A stretch of DNA of 33,257 nucleotides from Flavobacteriales bacterium (GTDB taxonomy: Bacteria; Bacteroidota; Bacteroidia; Flavobacteriales_D; Sanyastnellaceae): assembly GCA_947448135.1 (NCBI GenBank), contig CANFLZ010000025.1, positions 1 to 33,257 on the forward strand, given 5' to 3'. This document shows, one piece after another, positions 18,675 to 33,257 of the stretch (the first letter of the stretch is position 1; every line of letters begins with the position of its first letter). Made by a program: the position numbers and the translations under genes. The notes beneath the pieces were generated by a model. The model was not told where the DNA came from. It searched no databases and worked only from the letters and a program-made list of their open reading frames with translations.

Positions 18675-19784
18675 ATGGGAGTTTGCAGCAGATGTTTAAT
18701 GGATAGTTCGGACATTGAAATTGTTTTCAATGACTTGGGGCATTGCAATCACTGCACGGCGTCCATCGCAAGATGGAATTCTTCTGAATTCCAAGATCAA
18801 ACGTCACGAATGGCTCAGTTGAATCAATGGCTCGATCGAATCAAAACCGATGGGAAAGGAAAGGAGTACGATTGCATCATTGGGTTGAGTGGTGGAGTGG
18901 ATAGTAGCTATGTTGCTTATTTGGTCAAGAAGGTTTATGGTTTGCGACCATTGGCTGTTCATTTGGACAATGGGTGGAACTCTGAGTTAGCGGTACGAAA
19001 TATTGATAAAATTCTGGATCGATTGGAAATTGATTTGGTGACGGATGTTTTGGATTGGGAGGAGTTTAGTGCATTGCAAAGGTCTTTTTTAAAGGCCTCT
19101 GTTTTGGATATGGAATTGCTAACGGATCATGCGATTGGTGTGGCACTTTGGAAAATATCCCAACGATTTCAGATTCCTTATTTTATTTCAGGCTTCAACT
19201 TTCAAAGTGAAAATGTAATGCCTCCAACATGGATCTATCCTTTTAAAATGGATAGCTTGAACATTCGTGATATTTATAAGAAGTTTGGAGAGGGTAAGCC
19301 ATTGAAGTCTTTTGAGTTTTTGTCATTTCGCGAATTTCTGTTTTTCGGAAAAAATAAAATGACCCTTTTCCCGATTTTAAATTTTGTAGATTATCACAAA
19401 GAATCTGCAATCAATGTCATCACACAAGAATTGGGATGGCGCAATTATGGCAACAAGCATGACGAGTCTGTATTTACCAAGTTTTATCAAGACATTTTGT
19501 TGTTCGAGAAATTTGGAATAGACAAACGCAAAGCACATTATTCCAGTTTGATCTGCACGGGTCAAATAACACGTGAGGAGGCATTTCAAAAGATTCAAGC
19601 GCCACCTTTAAATGCGGAAGCAAGGCAGAAGAGCATTCAGTATGTCTTGAAGAAATTGGATATGACTGAATTGGAGTTTGATCAAATTTTAAAATCAGCT
19701 CCAAGGAAACATTGGGATTTTTCATCCTACGCCAAGAGGAAGCAGCAAGTTGGAAATTTTTTAAGAAAATTGAAGCTGCGATGA
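18675..19784 (+). CDS. N-acetyl sugar amidotransferase, stand-alone PP-loop type (WbpG/PseA-like)
   Basis: A 369-residue PP-loop ATP pyrophosphatase-fold enzyme. WbpG-family proteins use ammonia to turn an N-acetyl group on a sugar into an acetamidino group, or act on related sugars. The N-terminus has two CxxC pairs (Cys4/Cys7 and Cys24/Cys27), probably a zinc site. The PP-loop is LSGGVDSSY (SGGVDS at residues 72-77). The C-terminal part ends with the family pattern TREEAFQKI. In Pseudomonas aeruginosa, WbpG works with HisH- and HisF-like partners that deliver ammonia; here such partners lie 12 kb downstream in the same operon, after a second, fused paralogue. It starts 28 bases after the preceding gene, the largest gap within the cluster. 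The exact sugar substrate is unknown. Confidence 0.88.
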   Translation: MGVCSRCLMDSSDIEIVFNDLGHCNHCTASIARWNSSEFQDQTSRMAQLNQWLDRIKTDGKGKEYDCIIGLSGGVDSSYVAYLVKKVYGLRPLAVHLDNGWNSELAVRNIDKILDRLEIDLVTDVLDWEEFSALQRSFLKASVLDMELLTDHAIGVALWKISQRFQIPYFISGFNFQSENVMPPTWIYPFKMDSLNIRDIYKKFGEGKPLKSFEFLSFREFLFFGKNKMTLFPILNFVDYHKESAINVITQELGWRNYGNKHDESVFTKFYQDILLFEKFGIDKRKAHYSSLICTGQITREEAFQKIQAPPLNAEARQKSIQYVLKKLDMTELEFDQILKSAPRKHWDFSSYAKRKQQVGNFLRKLKLR

Positions 19785-26072: not shown

Positions 26073-27083
26073 ATGGGGAAGAGACTTTTAATAACGGGTG
26101 GTACTGGTTCTTTTGGCCAGGCAGTATTGAATCGATTTATACATTCGGAAGAATATTCGGAAATTAGGATTTTTAGTCGTGACGAAAAAAAGCAGGATGA
26201 TTTGAGAAAGAAGATCAATCATCCGAAAGTAACCTTTTACATCGGAGATGTTCGTGATGAGCGCAGTGTCGCTGATGCTATGGTGAATATCGACTTTGTA
26301 TTTCATGCAGCGGCTTTGAAGCAAGTTCCTTCGTGTGAGTTTTTTCCGATGGAAGCTGTAAAGACCAATATCCTCGGAACAGAGAATGTTTTGAATGCGG
26401 CCATTCAAGCCAAGGTAAAAAAGGTAGTGGTACTCAGCACCGATAAGGCTGCATATCCGATCAATGCAATGGGAATGTCCAAGGCATTGATGGAAAAAGT
26501 AATGATTGCCAAATCGCGCAATCTCACCGATTCACAGACCGTCCTTTGTGGAACACGTTATGGAAATGTGATGGCCTCTCGCGGATCTGTGATTCCTCTG
26601 TTCATTGATCAAATGAAAAAAGAACTTCCATTGACAATCACCAATCCCAACATGACTCGTTTCATGATGACATTGGAAGATGCGGTGGATTTGGTTTTGT
26701 TTGCTTTCGAACATGCCAAGCAAGGTGATCTTTTTATTCAAAAATCCCCAGCTTGTACCATTGAGACTTTGGCCAATGCCATGCTTTCTCTTTATCAATC
26801 AGAGGTGGGGATCAAGTTGATAGGAACCCGACATGGAGAGAAGTTGTTTGAGACGTTGGTCAACAAAGAAGACATGGTTGTGGCGGAGGATTTTGGAAAG
26901 TATTATCGTATTCCGGCGGATTCAAGAGATTTGCGTTACGATGATTACTACTCGACAGGAAATGAAAAAATTGACAAGGTAGAGGAGTATAATTCGCACA
27001 ATACTGTCCAATTGGATTTGGAGCAAACCAAATCTTTGTTGATGAAATTGACAGAAGTTGCTTCAGATGTAAAAAATCAATGA
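26073..27083 (+). CDS. capE: UDP-GlcNAc 4,6-dehydratase/5-epimerase, CapE/WbjB type
   Basis: First enzyme for UDP-N-acetyl-L-fucosamine: it dehydrates UDP-GlcNAc and inverts C5 to give a 4-keto-6-deoxy-L-sugar. The 336-residue protein has the NAD(P) motif TGGTGSFG (8-15), IFSRDEKKQDDLR, and the catalytic stretch STDKAAYPINAMGMSK. At the position of the usual YxxxK tyrosine stands Met133 (with Lys137), as I recall for CapE/WbjB-type enzymes, while Asp124 and Lys125 are kept. GTRYGNVMASRGSVIPLF is typical of the FlaA1/CapE family. The next two genes supply the remaining steps, which makes this assignment strong; a PseB-type dehydratase is less likely because it would have Tyr at 133. Confidence 0.93.
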   Translation: MGKRLLITGGTGSFGQAVLNRFIHSEEYSEIRIFSRDEKKQDDLRKKINHPKVTFYIGDVRDERSVADAMVNIDFVFHAAALKQVPSCEFFPMEAVKTNILGTENVLNAAIQAKVKKVVVLSTDKAAYPINAMGMSKALMEKVMIAKSRNLTDSQTVLCGTRYGNVMASRGSVIPLFIDQMKKELPLTITNPNMTRFMMTLEDAVDLVLFAFEHAKQGDLFIQKSPACTIETLANAMLSLYQSEVGIKLIGTRHGEKLFETLVNKEDMVVAEDFGKYYRIPADSRDLRYDDYYSTGNEKIDKVEEYNSHNTVQLDLEQTKSLLMKLTEVASDVKNQ

Positions 27084-28216
27084 GCAAAATGAAAATTGGA
27101 GTCACGGGAGCGGAAGGTTTTTTGGGAAAGGCGCTGCTTCGTCAATTGAAATTGAACGAAGCATTTGATGTTGACGTTTGTCTCCGAGAATATTGGCATT
27201 CAGAACAACAGTTGGAGAGCTGGGTAAGTGGATTGGATGTTTTGGTTCATTTGGCAGGAAAGAATCGTTCCAGTGAACCCCAAGAAATTTATGATGTCAA
27301 CATCGGATTAACGACTCAGTTGATTCAAGCTTTGGAAAAGTCCTCTTCAAAAGCAAAGGTGATTTTTTCTTCATCGATTCAGGAGGAGAGGGACAATATA
27401 TATGGTCAGTCTAAAAAGGAAGCTCGAATGCTTTGGCAAGATTGGGCGGATCGGAATGACACATATTTTGTTGGTCTTTTGATTCCCAACTTGTTTGGGC
27501 CTTTTGGTCAGCCTTTTTACAATTCAGTAGTAGCCACATTTTGTCACCAGATTTCCAATGGCGAATCGCCGAGCATTCAAGTAGATGCCATTTTGCCATT
27601 GATCTATGTAGACGATTGTGTGCGGCATATCATCCAATGGATTGTCAATTCCGATCGTGTCAATACAGCGTGGATAATGCCACATGAATTTGATGTCAAG
27701 GTGTCTGAAATATTGGCGCAACTCCAGTCTTTTCAGGAGGCCTATTTAAGTCGCGGTGAAATGCCAGACTTACGCTCAAAATGGACATTGTATTTATTCG
27801 CAACTTTCCAATCGTATTTGAAATGGGAAAACTTTTTTCCATTTTCACTCAAGAAAAACACCGATCCTCGCGGATCATTTGTAGAGATAATCAGGCTCAA
27901 TAGTGGTGGTCAAGTTTCATTTTCTACGACGGTTCCGGGTATTACGCGAGGCAATCACTTTCATACCCGGAAGATGGAACGTTTTGCGGTCATCAGCGGA
28001 AAGGCAAAAATCGCTTTTCGAAAAGTGGACGAAGATGTCATCCATGAGTTTGATTTGGATGGCGATCAACCGTCATTTGTTGACATGCCCGTTTGGTACA
28101 CCCATTCGATTACCAATGTAGGTGACCAAGAGTTGCTGACCATGTTTTGGATCAATGAGCATTACAATGCAGCAGATCCTGATACTTATTTTGTGAACGT
28201 TTATCCATCAATATAA
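27080..28216 (+). CDS. capF: UDP-2-acetamido-2,6-dideoxy-L-hexulose reductase/epimerase, CapF/WbjC type
   Basis: Bifunctional second enzyme of the UDP-L-FucNAc route. The N-terminal SDR reductase domain (about 1-250) has GVTGAEGFLGKALL and the catalytic IYGQSK (Tyr and Lys in YxxxK spacing), preceded by SSSIQ. The C-terminal cupin domain (about 265-378) has GNHFHTRKMERF and DMPVWYTHSI, with histidines for the zinc site that supports C3 epimerisation. The two-domain structure is diagnostic of CapF. Length 378 compares with about 369 in Staphylococcus aureus. Its start overlaps the capE stop in an ATGA. Confidence 0.94.
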   Translation: MSKMKIGVTGAEGFLGKALLRQLKLNEAFDVDVCLREYWHSEQQLESWVSGLDVLVHLAGKNRSSEPQEIYDVNIGLTTQLIQALEKSSSKAKVIFSSSIQEERDNIYGQSKKEARMLWQDWADRNDTYFVGLLIPNLFGPFGQPFYNSVVATFCHQISNGESPSIQVDAILPLIYVDDCVRHIIQWIVNSDRVNTAWIMPHEFDVKVSEILAQLQSFQEAYLSRGEMPDLRSKWTLYLFATFQSYLKWENFFPFSLKKNTDPRGSFVEIIRLNSGGQVSFSTTVPGITRGNHFHTRKMERFAVISGKAKIAFRKVDEDVIHEFDLDGDQPSFVDMPVWYTHSITNVGDQELLTMFWINEHYNAADPDTYFVNVYPSI

Positions 28217-28219
28217 AAT

Positions 28220-29353
28220 ATGGAAAAAATCAATTTTAAATTGGCTGTAGTCGTTGGAACTCGTCCGGAGATCATTCGACTTTCTCGTGTTCTGGATTTG
28301 GCCAATAGCATGGTCAATTTGGTTTTGATTCACACGGGTCAAAATTATGACTACGAATTGAATCAAATCTTTTTTGACGAATTGGGTGTCCGCAAGCCAG
28401 ACTACTTTTTAAATGCAGATGTTTCGAGTTTGGGCAATACCGTTGGCGATATTTTAAAAAAGGTGGAACCCATTCTAAGAGATGAGCGTCCAGATGCTTT
28501 TTTGGTTTTGGGAGATACCAACTCTTGTTTGTCTGCTTACATCGCTAAGAGATTGAAGATTCCTGTGTTTCATATGGAGGCCGGGAATCGTTGCTTTGAT
28601 TTTAACGTGCCTGAGGAGACCAATCGAAGAATCATCGATCATATCGCCGATTTTAATTTGGTTTACACCGAACATGCACGTCGACACTTGATTGCAGAAG
28701 GACTTCCGCAGCGCAGAATTTATTTGACGGGTTCACCTATGAAAGAGGTCCTCAACGCTTATGCGGATAAAGTTGACAAGAGTTCTATTTTGTCAGAATT
28801 GAAATTGACTCCAAAAGGCTACTTTGTATTCTCCATCCATCGTGAAGAGAATGTGGACTATCCTTCACAATTGGAACGAATCGTGGAGTCGATGCATCAT
28901 TTGGCGGCGCATTATTCAATGCCATTTGTTTTCTCTTGTCATCCAAGAACTTTAAAGCGAATCGAAGCATTAAAATTGGAATTGCCATCCAATGTTTTGC
29001 TATTAAAACCATTTGGCTTCTTTGATTACATCGCATTACAGAAAAGTGCAAAATGTGTTGTTTCAGATTCAGGAACGATTAGCGAAGAATCTTCCATGTT
29101 GTCTTTCCCTGCCATTTCTATTCGTGAGAGTATGGAGCGTCCTGAGGCGCAAGATGTTGGAACCATCATTTTGTCAGGCATCAAAAAAGAAGGTGTTTTA
29201 AATGCTGTTCAATTGGTGATAGAGGAGTTTGATCGCAACCAGCAGTATGCTGCAATAGCGGATGATTATCAAATTGAAAATACCTCGTGGCGAGTTATGA
29301 AGTTGATTGTAGGTAATGCAGGGTTGAATGCCAAGTGGAATAATTTATTGTGA
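28220..29353 (+). CDS. capG: UDP-N-acetyl-L-fucosamine synthase (C2 epimerase), CapG/WbjD type
   Basis: Third enzyme of the route: it inverts C2 to yield UDP-L-FucNAc. The 377-residue protein belongs to the UDP-GlcNAc 2-epimerase fold: VVVGTRPEIIRLSRVL, VLGDTNSCLSAYIAKR, HMEAGNRCFDFNVPEETNRR, SIHREENVDYPSQLE, and SDSGTISEESSML. The EAGNRCFD variant, in place of EAGLRT in WecB/MnaA, is the mark of the CapG/WbjD branch. It lies three bases after capF and four bases before the GT26 gene. Confidence 0.94.
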   Translation: MEKINFKLAVVVGTRPEIIRLSRVLDLANSMVNLVLIHTGQNYDYELNQIFFDELGVRKPDYFLNADVSSLGNTVGDILKKVEPILRDERPDAFLVLGDTNSCLSAYIAKRLKIPVFHMEAGNRCFDFNVPEETNRRIIDHIADFNLVYTEHARRHLIAEGLPQRRIYLTGSPMKEVLNAYADKVDKSSILSELKLTPKGYFVFSIHREENVDYPSQLERIVESMHHLAAHYSMPFVFSCHPRTLKRIEALKLELPSNVLLLKPFGFFDYIALQKSAKCVVSDSGTISEESSMLSFPAISIRESMERPEAQDVGTIILSGIKKEGVLNAVQLVIEEFDRNQQYAAIADDYQIENTSWRVMKLIVGNAGLNAKWNNLL

Positions 29354-29357
29354 GAAC

Positions 29358-30152
29358 ATGCAACACCTCTATCCTATTGGTCTAAAAGTTTCTGATTTTT
29401 CGCAAGAAGAATTGGAAAACTATGTCGATCAAGTGATGCAGAAAAAATCGGAGACAATCGTCTTTGGATATAGCTTGGGATATGTAACCTTGTACAAAAA
29501 ATATCCAGCTTTGTATCGGGAGGTCAATGAATTTGATTTGATGTTGTGCGATGGTGTTCCTTTTCATTGGTTTCTTAATTCAATGGGCATTCGATTAAAA
29601 CGCGTTATTTCGATTCCGGAATTCAGTGAATGGATTGTGGAACGATGCGCACAAAAGGGTTGGACGTTGATGATTATCGGCGGAACTACTGAAATAAATC
29701 AGCGCGCGGCAGAAAATACCCGAAAGCGATTCCCTTCGATTCAAATCAAGGAAGGCCGCGATGGGTATTTTAAATTGGAGGAAGAGCAAAGTGTGGTAGC
29801 GCACATTCAATCAGCGAAGCCCGATGTTTTATTGGTAGCCATGTCGACACCTAAGAAAGAGGAATTTGTGATTCGGAACAAAGGGAAGTTGGGCGCGACG
29901 ATGGTCATTCCGTGTGGCGGAATGGTAGATGTATTGGCAGGAAAGACAACGCGTAGCCCTCGTTGGATAAAAAAAATGGGGTTGGCTACATTTTACAGAA
30001 TAGCGCAAGAACCCAAGCGGTTGATGCGCGCGCACATGAAAATGGTGGTGGAATCAATCTTTAAATTGATGCCCATTGCCTGGTGGAATATGATAACCCG
30101 AAAAAGAAGGGGAGTGCAAATTCTTGAACGTTATACCCAAAAAAGCTTGTAG
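29358..30152 (+). CDS. WecG/TagA/CpsF family glycosyltransferase (GT26)
   Basis: A 264-residue inverting transferase that usually adds the second sugar (an N-acetylmannosamine-type residue) to the polyprenyl-linked primer. Motifs are MLCDGVPFHWFL with Asp65, which lines up with the Asp proposed as catalytic base in TagA, then MIIGGTTEINQRAAE, PDVLLVAMSTPKKEEF, and VIPCGGMVDVLAGKTTRSPRW. The basic C-terminal tail (RIAQEPKRLMRAHMKM) matches the membrane-docking appendage of the family. The ATG at 29358 is used; an in-frame start 30 bases earlier lies within capG. The presence of this family suggests a ManNAc-like or mannuronic acid sugar in the repeat unit, but the donor here is unproved. Confidence 0.9.
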   Translation: MQHLYPIGLKVSDFSQEELENYVDQVMQKKSETIVFGYSLGYVTLYKKYPALYREVNEFDLMLCDGVPFHWFLNSMGIRLKRVISIPEFSEWIVERCAQKGWTLMIIGGTTEINQRAAENTRKRFPSIQIKEGRDGYFKLEEEQSVVAHIQSAKPDVLLVAMSTPKKEEFVIRNKGKLGATMVIPCGGMVDVLAGKTTRSPRWIKKMGLATFYRIAQEPKRLMRAHMKMVVESIFKLMPIAWWNMITRKRRGVQILERYTQKSL

Positions 30153-30155
30153 GAT

Positions 30156-32090
30156 ATGTGCGGAATTTTTGGAGTAATTACGAAAAAAGAAAAAACTTTC
30201 AATGCCGCGATGGTCAAGAGAGATTGGGTAGCACTCAATTCTCTTTCTTCATCTCGTGGAAAGGATTCTTCTGGTGGTGTTTTTTATAACGACGCAGCAA
30301 AGAAAATCACTGTCGTCAAGGGTGATGTCCCTGTCACATCGATCATGAAAGAAAAGTCATGGATCAATGCTCTGGATAAATCATTAAATGCGAAGCGTTT
30401 CTTGGCTATCGGCCATACAAGATTGGTGACGAACGGATCGCAGCTAGACAATACCAACAATCAGCCCGTCATCAAAGATGGTGGTTTGCTTGTGCACAAT
30501 GGTATCGTTGTCAATCACGAGGATCTTTGGAAAAGTGAAATGGGTCTTCGTCGTGATTTCGAAATTGATTCAGAAATCATTTTGGCTTTGATACAAGCCA
30601 ATCTGAAATTAGGTATAGAGGAGTCGGTGAGAAGGTGCAATGAAAAATTGCAAGGAACATTTTCGTATGCATGTATTCTGCCTGCTCAAGGGTGTTTTGT
30701 TTTGTCTTCAAACAACGGCTCTTTGTATTGTTACGAGGATGAAAATGTGGTCGTTTTTGCAAGTGAAAGAAGTTTTTTGATCGAGTTGCAAATGGTTACA
30801 GATCATTCTCTCATACATCACATATCGGGAGGTGAAGTCAAAGTTTTTGCATTTGAAGATTTTATCGATAACGCCGTCTCGACGGAAGTGCAAGAGGTGA
30901 TTGGAGAGAACCATGACTTAAAAGTTTTGGATTCCTCTGCCTTCATGGACAACAAGTTTTCGGGAGAAAGAAAATTATTGGAATTTAACTGGGAGGAAAT
31001 CAGCGCGCTCAAGCGATGTTCCAAATGTGTTTTGCCAGAAACTTTTCCTTTCATCGCCTTCGATCAAGAGGGCGTATGCAACTATTGTCATTCTAGTAAA
31101 CCCATTCAGGTTAAAGGAAATTTAGATGATTTAATGACCACCATTCAACCATTTATCAAGAGGGCGGATGACAATTGCATTGTGCCATTGAGTGGCGGAC
31201 GAGATAGTATCTTTTCTCTGCACTTGGTCAAAGAAGTGATGGGATTAAAACCGGTTACAATGACCTACGATTGGGGAATGGTAACAGATTTGGCCAGAAG
31301 AAACATTGCCAGAGCGTGCGGAGAGATGGGAGTTGAGAACATCATTTTTGCTGCGGACTCAGATTTTAAACGAAGGAATATTCGATTGAATTTAGAGGCT
31401 TGGTTGAAACAGCCGCATCTGGGCATGGTTCCTTTATTTATGGCCGGCGATAAGTACTTTTTTCATTATTGTTCTGAATTACAAAATAAGTTGGGTGTCG
31501 ATTTAAATATTTGGGGCGCGCATCAGTATGAAAATACCGATTTTAAAATCGGATTTGCCGGCGTAAGTCCCAATTTTGAAAAAGAGAAAATCTATTCGCT
31601 ATCCATGCAGCAAAAATTGAAGTTGATGGGATTTGTCGGTAAACAATTCATCTCAAATCCATCGTATTTCAATTTATCATTGATGGATACGTTGGGCGCT
31701 TACAAAGCGAGAGACCAATTCAACTTCAATGGCCATTTTCAAATTTTTGATTATTTTGATTGGGATGAAAAAGTGATTTTAGATACCATCGAAAGCAAAT
31801 ACGGTTGGGAACGCGCCATTGATTCAGATTCGACATGGCGGATAGGAGATGGTACAACGAGTTTCTATAATTACATCTATTTTGTTGTAGCAGGATTTTC
31901 TGAAGTTGAAACATTCAGAAGCAATCAAATTCGAAATGGAAAATTAACCCGAGAAGAAGCCATGAAACGAATCGAGCAAGAGAACCATCCGCGTTTTGAG
32001 TCGATCAAATGGTATTTGCACATGATTGGGTTGGATTTCGAAACGGTAATCAAACGAATCAATCAAATTCCAAAATTGTACAGAAAGTGA
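30156..32090 (+). CDS. Fusion of class II glutamine amidotransferase and PP-loop N-acetyl sugar amidotransferase
   Basis: A 644-residue two-domain enzyme. Residues 1 to about 215 are an Ntn-type glutaminase: MCGIFGV with nucleophile Cys2, SSRGKDSSG, GHTRLVTNG (Arg89), HNG (Asn115, Gly116) and DSE (Asp138), all intact. After a linker come two CxxC pairs (Cys288/Cys291 and Cys308/Cys311), then the PP-loop PLSGGRDSIF (SGGRDS at 346-351) and a C-terminus with KLTREEAMKRI that mirrors the stand-alone paralogue at 18675. It should hydrolyse glutamine and pass ammonia to an ATP-activated acetamido sugar. Neither AsnB nor GlmS fits: the synthetase half is WbpG-like with a zinc ribbon, and there are no SIS domains. 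It begins three bases after the GT26 stop and overlaps hisH by four bases (GTGA). Confidence 0.9.
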   Translation: MCGIFGVITKKEKTFNAAMVKRDWVALNSLSSSRGKDSSGGVFYNDAAKKITVVKGDVPVTSIMKEKSWINALDKSLNAKRFLAIGHTRLVTNGSQLDNTNNQPVIKDGGLLVHNGIVVNHEDLWKSEMGLRRDFEIDSEIILALIQANLKLGIEESVRRCNEKLQGTFSYACILPAQGCFVLSSNNGSLYCYEDENVVVFASERSFLIELQMVTDHSLIHHISGGEVKVFAFEDFIDNAVSTEVQEVIGENHDLKVLDSSAFMDNKFSGERKLLEFNWEEISALKRCSKCVLPETFPFIAFDQEGVCNYCHSSKPIQVKGNLDDLMTTIQPFIKRADDNCIVPLSGGRDSIFSLHLVKEVMGLKPVTMTYDWGMVTDLARRNIARACGEMGVENIIFAADSDFKRRNIRLNLEAWLKQPHLGMVPLFMAGDKYFFHYCSELQNKLGVDLNIWGAHQYENTDFKIGFAGVSPNFEKEKIYSLSMQQKLKLMGFVGKQFISNPSYFNLSLMDTLGAYKARDQFNFNGHFQIFDYFDWDEKVILDTIESKYGWERAIDSDSTWRIGDGTTSFYNYIYFVVAGFSEVETFRSNQIRNGKLTREEAMKRIEQENHPRFESIKWYLHMIGLDFETVIKRINQIPKLYRK

Positions 32091-32698
32091 AAGTAGGGGT
32101 TGTGCAATATGGCAATGGAAATGTTCATGCAGTGATGCGTGCTTTGAATCGTTGTGGTGTTCAACCACTTTTGGTAGATTCCCCGCAATTGGTGGATCAG
32201 TGTGACAAATTAATTTTTCCGGGTGTTGGGCATTTCAAAAATGCCATGGAAGCATTGCAGTCAGGTAATTGGATTAATGCATTGAGAAAATTCGCTTTGG
32301 AAGACCACAAGCCGTTTTTAGGAATTTGTTTGGGAATGCAATTGTTATCTGATTGGAGTGAAGAGGGCGATGTTTCCGGATTGGGCTGGATTCAGGGTAA
32401 GGTGATCAGAATGCAGAAAGGAGAAAGTCAGATTAAAATTCCGCACATGGGATGGAATCAACTGAGTTACCGAAATGGAACGATTTTACAAAATGTCACG
32501 CAAGAAGATTTCTTTTATTTCACACACAGTTACCATTGGTCAGAAGTTGCGTCTGACGAAATATTGTGCAAGACAATCTATGGAGTCGAAATAATTACCG
32601 GCGTAAAAAAGGGAAATGTTTGGGGGGTGCAATTTCATCCTGAAAAGAGCTACGAATCTGGGAAAGAAGTTATTCAATCGTTTTTACAAATTGCTTAA
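32087..32698 (+). CDS. hisH: HisH-like glutaminase, polysaccharide-associated type
   Basis: A 203-residue class I glutamine amidotransferase. The nucleophile elbow is GICLGMQLL with Cys81, and VQFHPEKS supplies His184 and Glu186, so the triad is intact. The start is the GTG at 32087, which overlaps the TGA of the fused amidotransferase; longer open frame upstream lies inside that gene, and the protein then opens MKVGVVQYGNGNV as the family requires. Housekeeping HisH feeds ammonia to HisF in histidine synthesis. Here the neighbours are a sugar amidotransferase upstream and a HisF-like protein upstream of the edge that lacks Asp11, so the role is ammonia supply for sugar amidination, as for the HisH2 protein beside WbpG in Pseudomonas. 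Confidence 0.92.
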   Translation: MKVGVVQYGNGNVHAVMRALNRCGVQPLLVDSPQLVDQCDKLIFPGVGHFKNAMEALQSGNWINALRKFALEDHKPFLGICLGMQLLSDWSEEGDVSGLGWIQGKVIRMQKGESQIKIPHMGWNQLSYRNGTILQNVTQEDFFYFTHSYHWSEVASDEILCKTIYGVEIITGVKKGNVWGVQFHPEKSYESGKEVIQSFLQIA

Positions 32699-32700
32699 TC

Positions 32701-33257
32701 ATGTATAGGCCGCGACTCATCCCTGTATTGTTGTTAGACAGAAATGGTTTATACAAAAGTCAGCGATTTAAAGATCATGAATACGTCGGCGATCCTATCA
32801 ATGCGGTGAGAATTTTTAACGATGCACGAATTGATGAATTGGTTGTATTAGATATCAATGCGACCCGAGAAAACCGTTGCGTCGATTTGGATTGGGTGAA
32901 AAAGATTGCTGAAGAAGCGGATATGCCTTTGGCGATTGGAGGCGGAATTTCTACTGTGGAGCAAATGAAAGCCATGATAGCATTGGGTGTTGAAAAGGTA
33001 GTGCTCGGAACTTTGCCCATTGTTAATCCAGATGAAGTGAAAAAAGCAGTCGAAGTTTTGGGTTCAAGTTCTGTTGTCGTATGTGTCGATGTGAAGAGGA
33101 ATAGCGCTGGAGAATGGAGCGGATATTTTGCCAATGGTCAACGGAGCATACATCAGGACGTGCCGACCTATTTGCGCCAATTGCAGGATTTAGGGGTTGG
33201 CGAGATTATCATACAAGACATGGATGCCGATGGACGTCAATGTGGATATGATCAAGA
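32701..33257 (+). CDS. hisF: HisF-like ammonia-channel subunit, polysaccharide-associated type (3' end cut by window edge)
   Basis: The first 185 codons of a TIM-barrel HisF homologue; about 65-70 more are expected. Numbering matches Thermotoga HisF for the first 130 residues. The general acid/base Asp11 is Leu (PVLLLDRNGLYK), while Lys19, Asp51 and Asp130 are kept. The ring that gates the ammonia tunnel is present: Arg5, Glu46, Lys99 and a Glu at 168. The protein should therefore bind HisH and conduct ammonia but not act as imidazole glycerol phosphate cyclase. This pattern agrees with HisF2-type proteins of O-antigen clusters. It starts two bases after hisH, completing the amidotransferase-HisH-HisF order. 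Confidence 0.93.
   Translation, partial: MYRPRLIPVLLLDRNGLYKSQRFKDHEYVGDPINAVRIFNDARIDELVVLDINATRENRCVDLDWVKKIAEEADMPLAIGGGISTVEQMKAMIALGVEKVVLGTLPIVNPDEVKKAVEVLGSSSVVVCVDVKRNSAGEWSGYFANGQRSIHQDVPTYLRQLQDLGVGEIIIQDMDADGRQCGYDQ

Follow-up and report, generated by a model that had tools for sequence, protein, structure and literature searches.

Two sugar amidotransferases with probably separate ammonia supplies in a polysaccharide gene cluster of a Flavobacteriales bacterium

The closest described relatives of the system considered here are WbuX-WbuY-WbuZ of Escherichia coli O145 and WbpG-HisH-HisF of Pseudomonas aeruginosa O5, in which a tetracysteine PP-loop N-acetyl sugar amidotransferase (NASAT) is combined with a HisH and a HisF2. 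The same components occur in a stretch of 33,257 nucleotides from a Flavobacteriales bacterium of the Sanyastnellaceae (GCA_947448135.1, CANFLZ010000025.1, positions 1 to 33,257). This stretch was analysed at its full length, is referred to below as the window, and is an entire contig (C25) of a 2.5 Mb genome. It encodes a stand-alone WbuX-type NASAT of 369 amino acids (18675..19784, on the forward strand like all genes of the window located below; TIGR03573 286 bits, cut-off 203.2), which together with the HisH-HisF of the locus forms a set of the same kind as the two described systems. Unlike those systems, the locus also encodes an enzyme of 644 amino acids with a class II glutaminase of its own, fused to a WbuX-like PP-loop amidotransferase (30156..32090; assigned from Pfam, TIGR03573, an AlphaFold2 model and structure matches). 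A scan of genome contigs, from which the best 80 of 524 stretches encoding relatives were kept, gave 80 fused loci with 79 genomes behind them, and 47 of these 79 genomes contain no stand-alone WbuX over the cut-off and no HisF2.

Class II amidotransferases hydrolyse glutamine to supply ammonia. The fused enzyme is laid out like asparagine synthetase B, with a single chain carrying an N-terminal class II glutaminase and then a PP-loop synthetase half, but the synthetase half is WbuX-like and has no match to PF00733, the asparagine synthetase B synthetase domain (Pfam, E <= 0.001). The solved chain of LpNASAT from Legionella pneumophila (8wex) aligns with the fused model over residues 284-644 only, and no mention of a glutaminase was found in the accessible part of the corresponding paper (PMC10607449). 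The titles and abstracts found in the open literature contained no description of the fused enzyme, most subscription papers lying outside the search. Another relevant protein is LfnA of P. aeruginosa O12, which, going by the title of King et al. 2008, the sole source on it here, is reportedly required for 2,6-dideoxy-2-acetamidino-L-galactose. This sugar belongs to the family expected from the FnlA-C enzymes of the locus, and if LfnA has a glutaminase domain, the fused type has already been characterised genetically. The fused type was found in 7 of 398 Pseudomonadaceae genomes, two of which were already known, and none of the seven is recognisable as serotype O12.

The cluster probably encodes two sugar amidotransferases that work independently and draw their ammonia from separate sources. 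In the fused enzyme, Cys2 of the N-terminal domain, of the N-terminal nucleophile (Ntn) type, would hydrolyse glutamine, and the ammonia would pass internally to the tetracysteine/PP-loop domain. The latter, with ATP, would activate the N-acetyl group of a sugar and swap its oxygen for NH, leading to an acetamidino sugar. An ATP-dependent conversion of N-acetyl to acetamidino is the reaction given for NASAT in the accessible part of the LpNASAT paper (PMC10607449). HisH, a class I glutaminase, would in turn provide ammonia that reaches the stand-alone WbuX via the barrel of HisF2, as in WbuX-WbuY-WbuZ and WbpG-HisH-HisF. If HisH-HisF feeds the stand-alone WbuX, its siting beside the fused gene is merely a matter of gene order.

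The architecture of the fused protein is well defined. Its N-terminal third contains a class II glutaminase domain (GATase_7 52.4 bits, residues 87-208, cut-off 25; GATase_6 47.4 bits, cut-off 27, both in Pfam). Residues Cys2, Arg89, Asn115, Gly116 and Asp138 are identical in all 86 fused frames of at least 590 amino acids, a set that comprises the window, five relatives from the phylum and 80 frames from the 80 genome-contig loci. The Cys after Met1, the Arg, the Asn-Gly and the Asp are what we take to be the active-site residues of class II glutaminases. A preliminary description of the locus had named a complete glutaminase with Cys2, Arg89, Asn115 and Asp138, and these residues stand exactly where it placed them; an inactive glutaminase domain, also considered, has no support from the sequence, since all 86 frames retain the active-site residues. 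The same complete conservation applies to the tetracysteine (C288, C291, C308, C311) and to the SGGRDS motif (346-351). The NASAT motifs CXXC...[GN]XCXXC and SGGXDS, as given in the accessible part of PMC10607449, are both present in the fused protein. The AlphaFold2 model, built from a 53-sequence alignment, reaches a predicted local distance difference test (pLDDT) score of 90.7 and a predicted template modelling (pTM) score of 0.90. Its N-terminal half resembles PurF/GlmS (Z 23.8), and its C-terminal half resembles LpNASAT 8wex (Z 23.2 over 312 residues, root-mean-square deviation 4.3, 20% identity). The top Foldseek match by E-value is AsnB 1ct9, to which the structural alignment covers residues 2-234 only.

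The relationship of the synthetase half to WbuX is more distant. Residues 286-626 match TIGR03573 with 134.7 bits, and because this is below the curated cut-off of 203.2, the protein is termed WbuX-like and not a member of TIGR03573. In a tree of 45 of the 88 fused rows and 42 stand-alone rows, supported by the Shimodaira-Hasegawa-like approximate likelihood ratio test (SH-aLRT) only, the PP-loop domains of the fused proteins group into a single clade with a branch value of 100 against the stand-alone rows, placed on a long branch (four rows were dropped as too short, and the long branches of L011 and L020 are unreliable). Such a low score and a separate clade on a long branch are what would be expected if the fused enzyme made a product other than an acetamidino sugar, e.g., a uronamide, and had only the fold in common with WbuX. 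This explanation is unlikely, given that every frame retains the tetracysteine motif and the PP-loop typical of the NASAT family and that the similarity to LpNASAT extends over 312 residues. Moreover, a separate AsnB-type group, whose representative matches PF00733, is present in 18 clustered loci and offers a different candidate for making uronamides at those loci.

The second ammonia source begins within the fused gene. The HisH-like class I glutaminase of the WbuY type (32087..32698, 203 amino acids) starts with a GTG at 32087, overlaps the stop of the fused gene by four bases, scores over the TIGR01855 cut-off (207.4 vs 105.4 bits) and has the triad Cys81, His184 and Glu186. It is followed by a HisF2/AglZ-type ammonia-channel subunit (32701..33257), which is cut by the contig end. 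Its 185 residues without a stop match positions 2-183 of the 248 of the HisF2 model NF038364 with 225.7 bits; the cut-off is 310 bits, and the window piece and a partly overlapping piece on contig C37 (193.5 bits) are two fragments scored separately. The intact class I glutaminase, the four-base overlap and the HisF-like protein reported in the preliminary description are thus all confirmed.

The HisF of the locus does not resemble a histidine enzyme in one position, as Asp11 of Thermotoga maritima HisF, presumably catalytic for the cyclase, aligns with Leu here and is replaced in 20 of 22 rows. Histidinol dehydrogenase had no match in the own genome (G000, 96% complete) in a search that was positive in 13 of 14 controls, and no second HisF was found in that genome at E <= 1e-20. 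A role of HisH-HisF in histidine biosynthesis is rejected on these two grounds. A HisF lacking Asp11, in a genome with no detectable histidinol dehydrogenase, makes HisH-HisF look like a dedicated ammonia supplier. As a separate observation, histidine synthesis as a whole is probably missing from this genome, given that histidinol dehydrogenase was not found.

The recipient of this ammonia is indicated by genome-wide co-occurrence. The WbuX model (TIGR03573) and the HisF2 model were searched in all 79 genomes, which represent the top matches to a single protein and include many metagenome-assembled genomes (MAGs) of unstated completeness. Stand-alone WbuX was counted at the curated TIGR03573 cut-off, which no fused gene attains, and the sub-cut-off PP-loop frames of three genomes (G569, G570, G574) were left out of the count. 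For HisF2, a 300-bit line was set in this analysis. A stand-alone WbuX over the cut-off is present in 32 of the 79 genomes, and HisF2 of at least 300 bits is found in 26 of these 32 vs none of the 47 without it (Fisher 1.7e-15); at the curated 310 bits the counts are 23 of 32 and 0 of 47. The first count rises to 29 of 32 by adding G519, G520 and G540, in which a lower-scoring HisF adjoins WbuX. In a paired test on the fused-protein tree with these last labels, 10 independent pairs were available, of which 8.4 on average were concordant and 0 opposite (median p 0.008). The HisF2 model, which also detects ordinary HisF (13 of 14 controls), had no match in 13 of the 47 genomes without WbuX (E <= 1e-20 for three, 1e-30 for ten), G514, G521 and G546 (Taylorella asinigenitalis) being three of these 13. 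Among 114 genomes of the family of the window, 12 have a stand-alone WbuX and no match of the fused type, and 7 of the 12 hold HisF2 of at least 300 bits.

Gene order points in the same direction. The series FnlA-FnlB-FnlC-WecG-fused gene-sugar transferase recurs in four other loci (L074, L078, L081, L095); in three of the four, FnlA is followed by a small additional frame. In all four, the fused gene leads directly to the sugar transferase with no HisH-HisF between, and among the five syntenic clusters HisH-HisF lies between the two only in the window, whose transferase is on C37. The four loci carry the same stand-alone WbuX approximately 9-11 kb from the fused gene, as in the window, and the WbuX of the window groups with theirs (SH-aLRT 100). 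Genome-wide co-occurrence and synteny together indicate that HisH-HisF most likely feeds the stand-alone WbuX. Among the readings offered in the preliminary description, the one in which the fused domain serves its own reaction and HisH-HisF the stand-alone paralogue is therefore well supported. Its two other readings, in which the enzymes work one after the other on a single sugar or one source has a regulatory role, are less probable possibilities for this locus.

The wider neighbourhoods were viewed in flanks of up to 10 kb on each side, shorter at 33 loci. HisH or HisF occurs in the flanks of 9 of the 80 fused loci, stand-alone WbuX in 12 and both in 7, which answers in the negative the earlier question of whether HisH-HisF always accompanies the fusion. 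A stand-alone WbuX directly adjoined by HisH-HisF is seen in L057, L077, L099, L180, L183, G528 and G584, and in G516 HisH-HisF lies upstream of it. In G511, G513 and G522 the fetched part of the cluster showed no HisH-HisF; their HisF2 is on another contig, which also holds a second stand-alone WbuX. Five new Pseudomonadaceae loci include two with HisH-HisF and a stand-alone WbuX (L180, L183) and three in which these were not seen (L179, L181, L182), with even the fused frame lost to the overlap filter in the case of L179 and L181. Adjacent wbuX, hisF2 and hisH were also all among the hits of a Sphingomonas screen, according to the accessible part of that paper (PMC11340318).

Several observations weigh against this assignment. 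HisH-HisF abuts the fused gene with the four-base overlap, and WbuX is 12 kb off. The adjacency is repeated in G544, where HisH-HisF lies directly before the fused gene (L141), though a stand-alone WbuX is some 17-19 kb away. Three loci (L105, L107, L126) have WbuX near the fused gene and no HisH-HisF in the flanks; three genomes (G536, G579, G585) have a stand-alone WbuX but no HisF2 or adjacent HisF, and a HisF2-model match is absent in 5 of the 12 genomes of the same family with a stand-alone WbuX. The count of 29 of 32 is based on WbuX adjacency and is partly circular, which the count of 26 of 32 is not; the genome sample, which contains MAGs, is biased to the close relatives of a single protein, and the 300-bit line was self-chosen. 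A mirror-tree comparison is weak, with large distances in a small set of 13 clusters, and leans slightly to the fused protein as the partner of HisH and HisF. For HisF, the Pearson and Spearman coefficients are 0.42 and 0.06 vs stand-alone WbuX and 0.47 and 0.48 vs the fused protein; for HisH, they are 0.54 and 0.30 vs 0.58 and 0.53, and stand-alone WbuX is favoured in 33% of the subsamples.

The operon position with its overlap, the second case in L141 and the slightly higher mirror-tree correlations with the fused protein would all fit a shared HisH-HisF, which feeds the stand-alone WbuX and can supply the fused PP-loop domain too, leaving the class II domain as a back-up or regulatory element. 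Such sharing appears improbable, as none of the 47 fusion genomes without a stand-alone WbuX has HisF2 of at least 300 bits, and the conservation of the class II residues in 86 of 86 frames speaks against a merely regulatory domain. With separate supplies as the preferred explanation, the puzzle of two sources is largely explained: both ammonia sources named in the preliminary description are present at the locus, but their convergence on one reaction is not needed.

Three side observations concern the WbuX and HisF matches themselves. In L171 (G104), a stand-alone WbuX and a HisH-like gene are close to each other, and the genome has no HisF2-model match. WbuX-type matches at G524:C1:112303 and G568:C5:28329 are located in open frames of 806 and 775 amino acids, and a HisF match at G519:C8:88002 is within an open frame of 625 amino acids; all three frames are possible fusions.

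The genes preceding the fused gene bear on the substrate. They encode an FnlA-like UDP-N-acetylglucosamine (UDP-GlcNAc) 4,6-dehydratase/5-epimerase (26073..27083; TIGR04130 526.7 bits, below the cut-off of 730), an FnlB/WbjC-like reductase (27080..28216; NF047837 281.5 bits, below the cut-off of 500; PF14667), an FnlC/WecB-like non-hydrolysing UDP-GlcNAc 2-epimerase (28220..29353; TIGR00236 243.4 bits, cut-off 210.15) and a WecG/TagA/CpsF glycosyltransferase (29328..30152; TIGR00696 103.5 bits, cut-off 69; PF03808). Judged from these gene assignments, FnlA-C point to a precursor of the N-acetyl-L-fucosamine (L-FucNAc) type, on which either amidotransferase could act. Assigning substrates from neighbours was tried and rejected as a general approach, FnlA, FnlB and FnlC preceding the fused gene only in the window and the four syntenic loci.

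The presence of both amidotransferase genes in all five syntenic clusters, and of both PglD-like and DegT aminotransferase groups, as for a diamino sugar, around 17 of 76 scored loci, raises the possibility that the two enzymes act successively on one di-N-acetyl sugar, or on two sugars per repeat unit. This is compatible with the explanation of the ammonia supply preferred here, and we regard it as possible but doubtful. The FnlA-C pathway, whose genes are the nucleotide-sugar genes of this cluster, has a product with a single N-acetyl group. Furthermore, 47 of the 79 fusion genomes lack a stand-alone WbuX over the cut-off and 12 of the 114 genomes of the same family have the stand-alone type with no fused-type match, which means that neither amidotransferase needs the other. 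The 76 scored loci are 79 loci minus three in which the fused frame was lost in the overlap filter, and their gene groups are named after one tested representative each. A sugar transferase of group c0 or c1 lies at most three genes from the fused gene in 40 of the 76, so that no firm rule emerges. Two other groups often come immediately after the fused gene: one of approximately 200 amino acids (10 loci; L112:12041-12628), with no match in Pfam for two members tried or in NCBIfam for one, and one of approximately 420 amino acids (6 loci; L122:11853-13121), the representative of which has no match in Pfam or NCBIfam.

Fusion of the two domains is not rare: of the 80 loci, 79 have them in one open frame, the exception (L135) being cut by a contig end, and the record titles include Bacteroidota, Pseudomonadota, Campylobacterota, Gemmatimonadota, Planctomycetota, Bacillota, Actinomycetota and two archaea. 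In a sample of 395 genomes of the phylum, the fused protein is present in five besides the own genome (G244, G354, G485, G236, G163), with 42-55% identity, and G148 has only its PP-loop part. Within the family of the window, a fused-type match occurs in this genome only (1 of 114), and six other genomes of the same genus, some of them incomplete, have neither the fused nor the stand-alone type, a distribution that suggests horizontal acquisition. Class II proteins of approximately 300 amino acids in G434, G505, G268, G485 (C16), G228, G465 and G182 were considered as candidates for a two-gene ancestor and rejected; none of the seven has a neighbour similar to the WbuX of the window in the fetched stretches. 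Variants of the fused gene were also encountered. In L069 (9995-12037), a single in-frame stop separates the glutaminase and PP-loop domains, and L165:5847-7064 encodes a fused-type PP-loop protein of 405 amino acids with no glutaminase domain detected; the fused form is present in that genome as well. Three viral-labelled IMG/VR contigs (L149, L150, L151) likewise encode relatives of the fused protein.

The fused gene, HisH and HisF are the final three genes, within the window, of a polysaccharide cluster that spans 12891 to the window end, with neighbouring genes overlapping or at most 28 bases apart; its product, as predicted from the genes, would be a cell-surface polysaccharide. The 3'-terminal 350 bases of C25 are the same as the 5'-terminal 350 of C37 except for 3 mismatches, probably reflecting an assembly break at strain variants. 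Because of this overlap the cluster most likely continues on C37, where HisF stops (L054:561) and is followed by a PF02397 sugar transferase and then by genes unlike the members of the cluster.

Taken as a family, proteins joining a class II glutaminase to a NASAT-type PP-loop domain seem somewhat more probably than otherwise to constitute an unnamed, widespread and self-sufficient group of single origin that has dispersed through many bacterial phyla and into archaea and provides an alternative to the three-gene WbuX-HisH-HisF system, with the cluster type described here running both. Three full-length plasmid matches are named glucosamine 6-phosphate synthetase, hypothetical protein and 7-cyano-7-deazaguanine synthase, and a large group of polysaccharide enzymes is thus poorly named in public records. 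The present comparison separates two ammonia-feeding routes for seemingly the same chemistry, and co-occurrence pairs each supplier with its enzyme. The fused gene can serve as a marker for surface glycans that may bear amidine groups.

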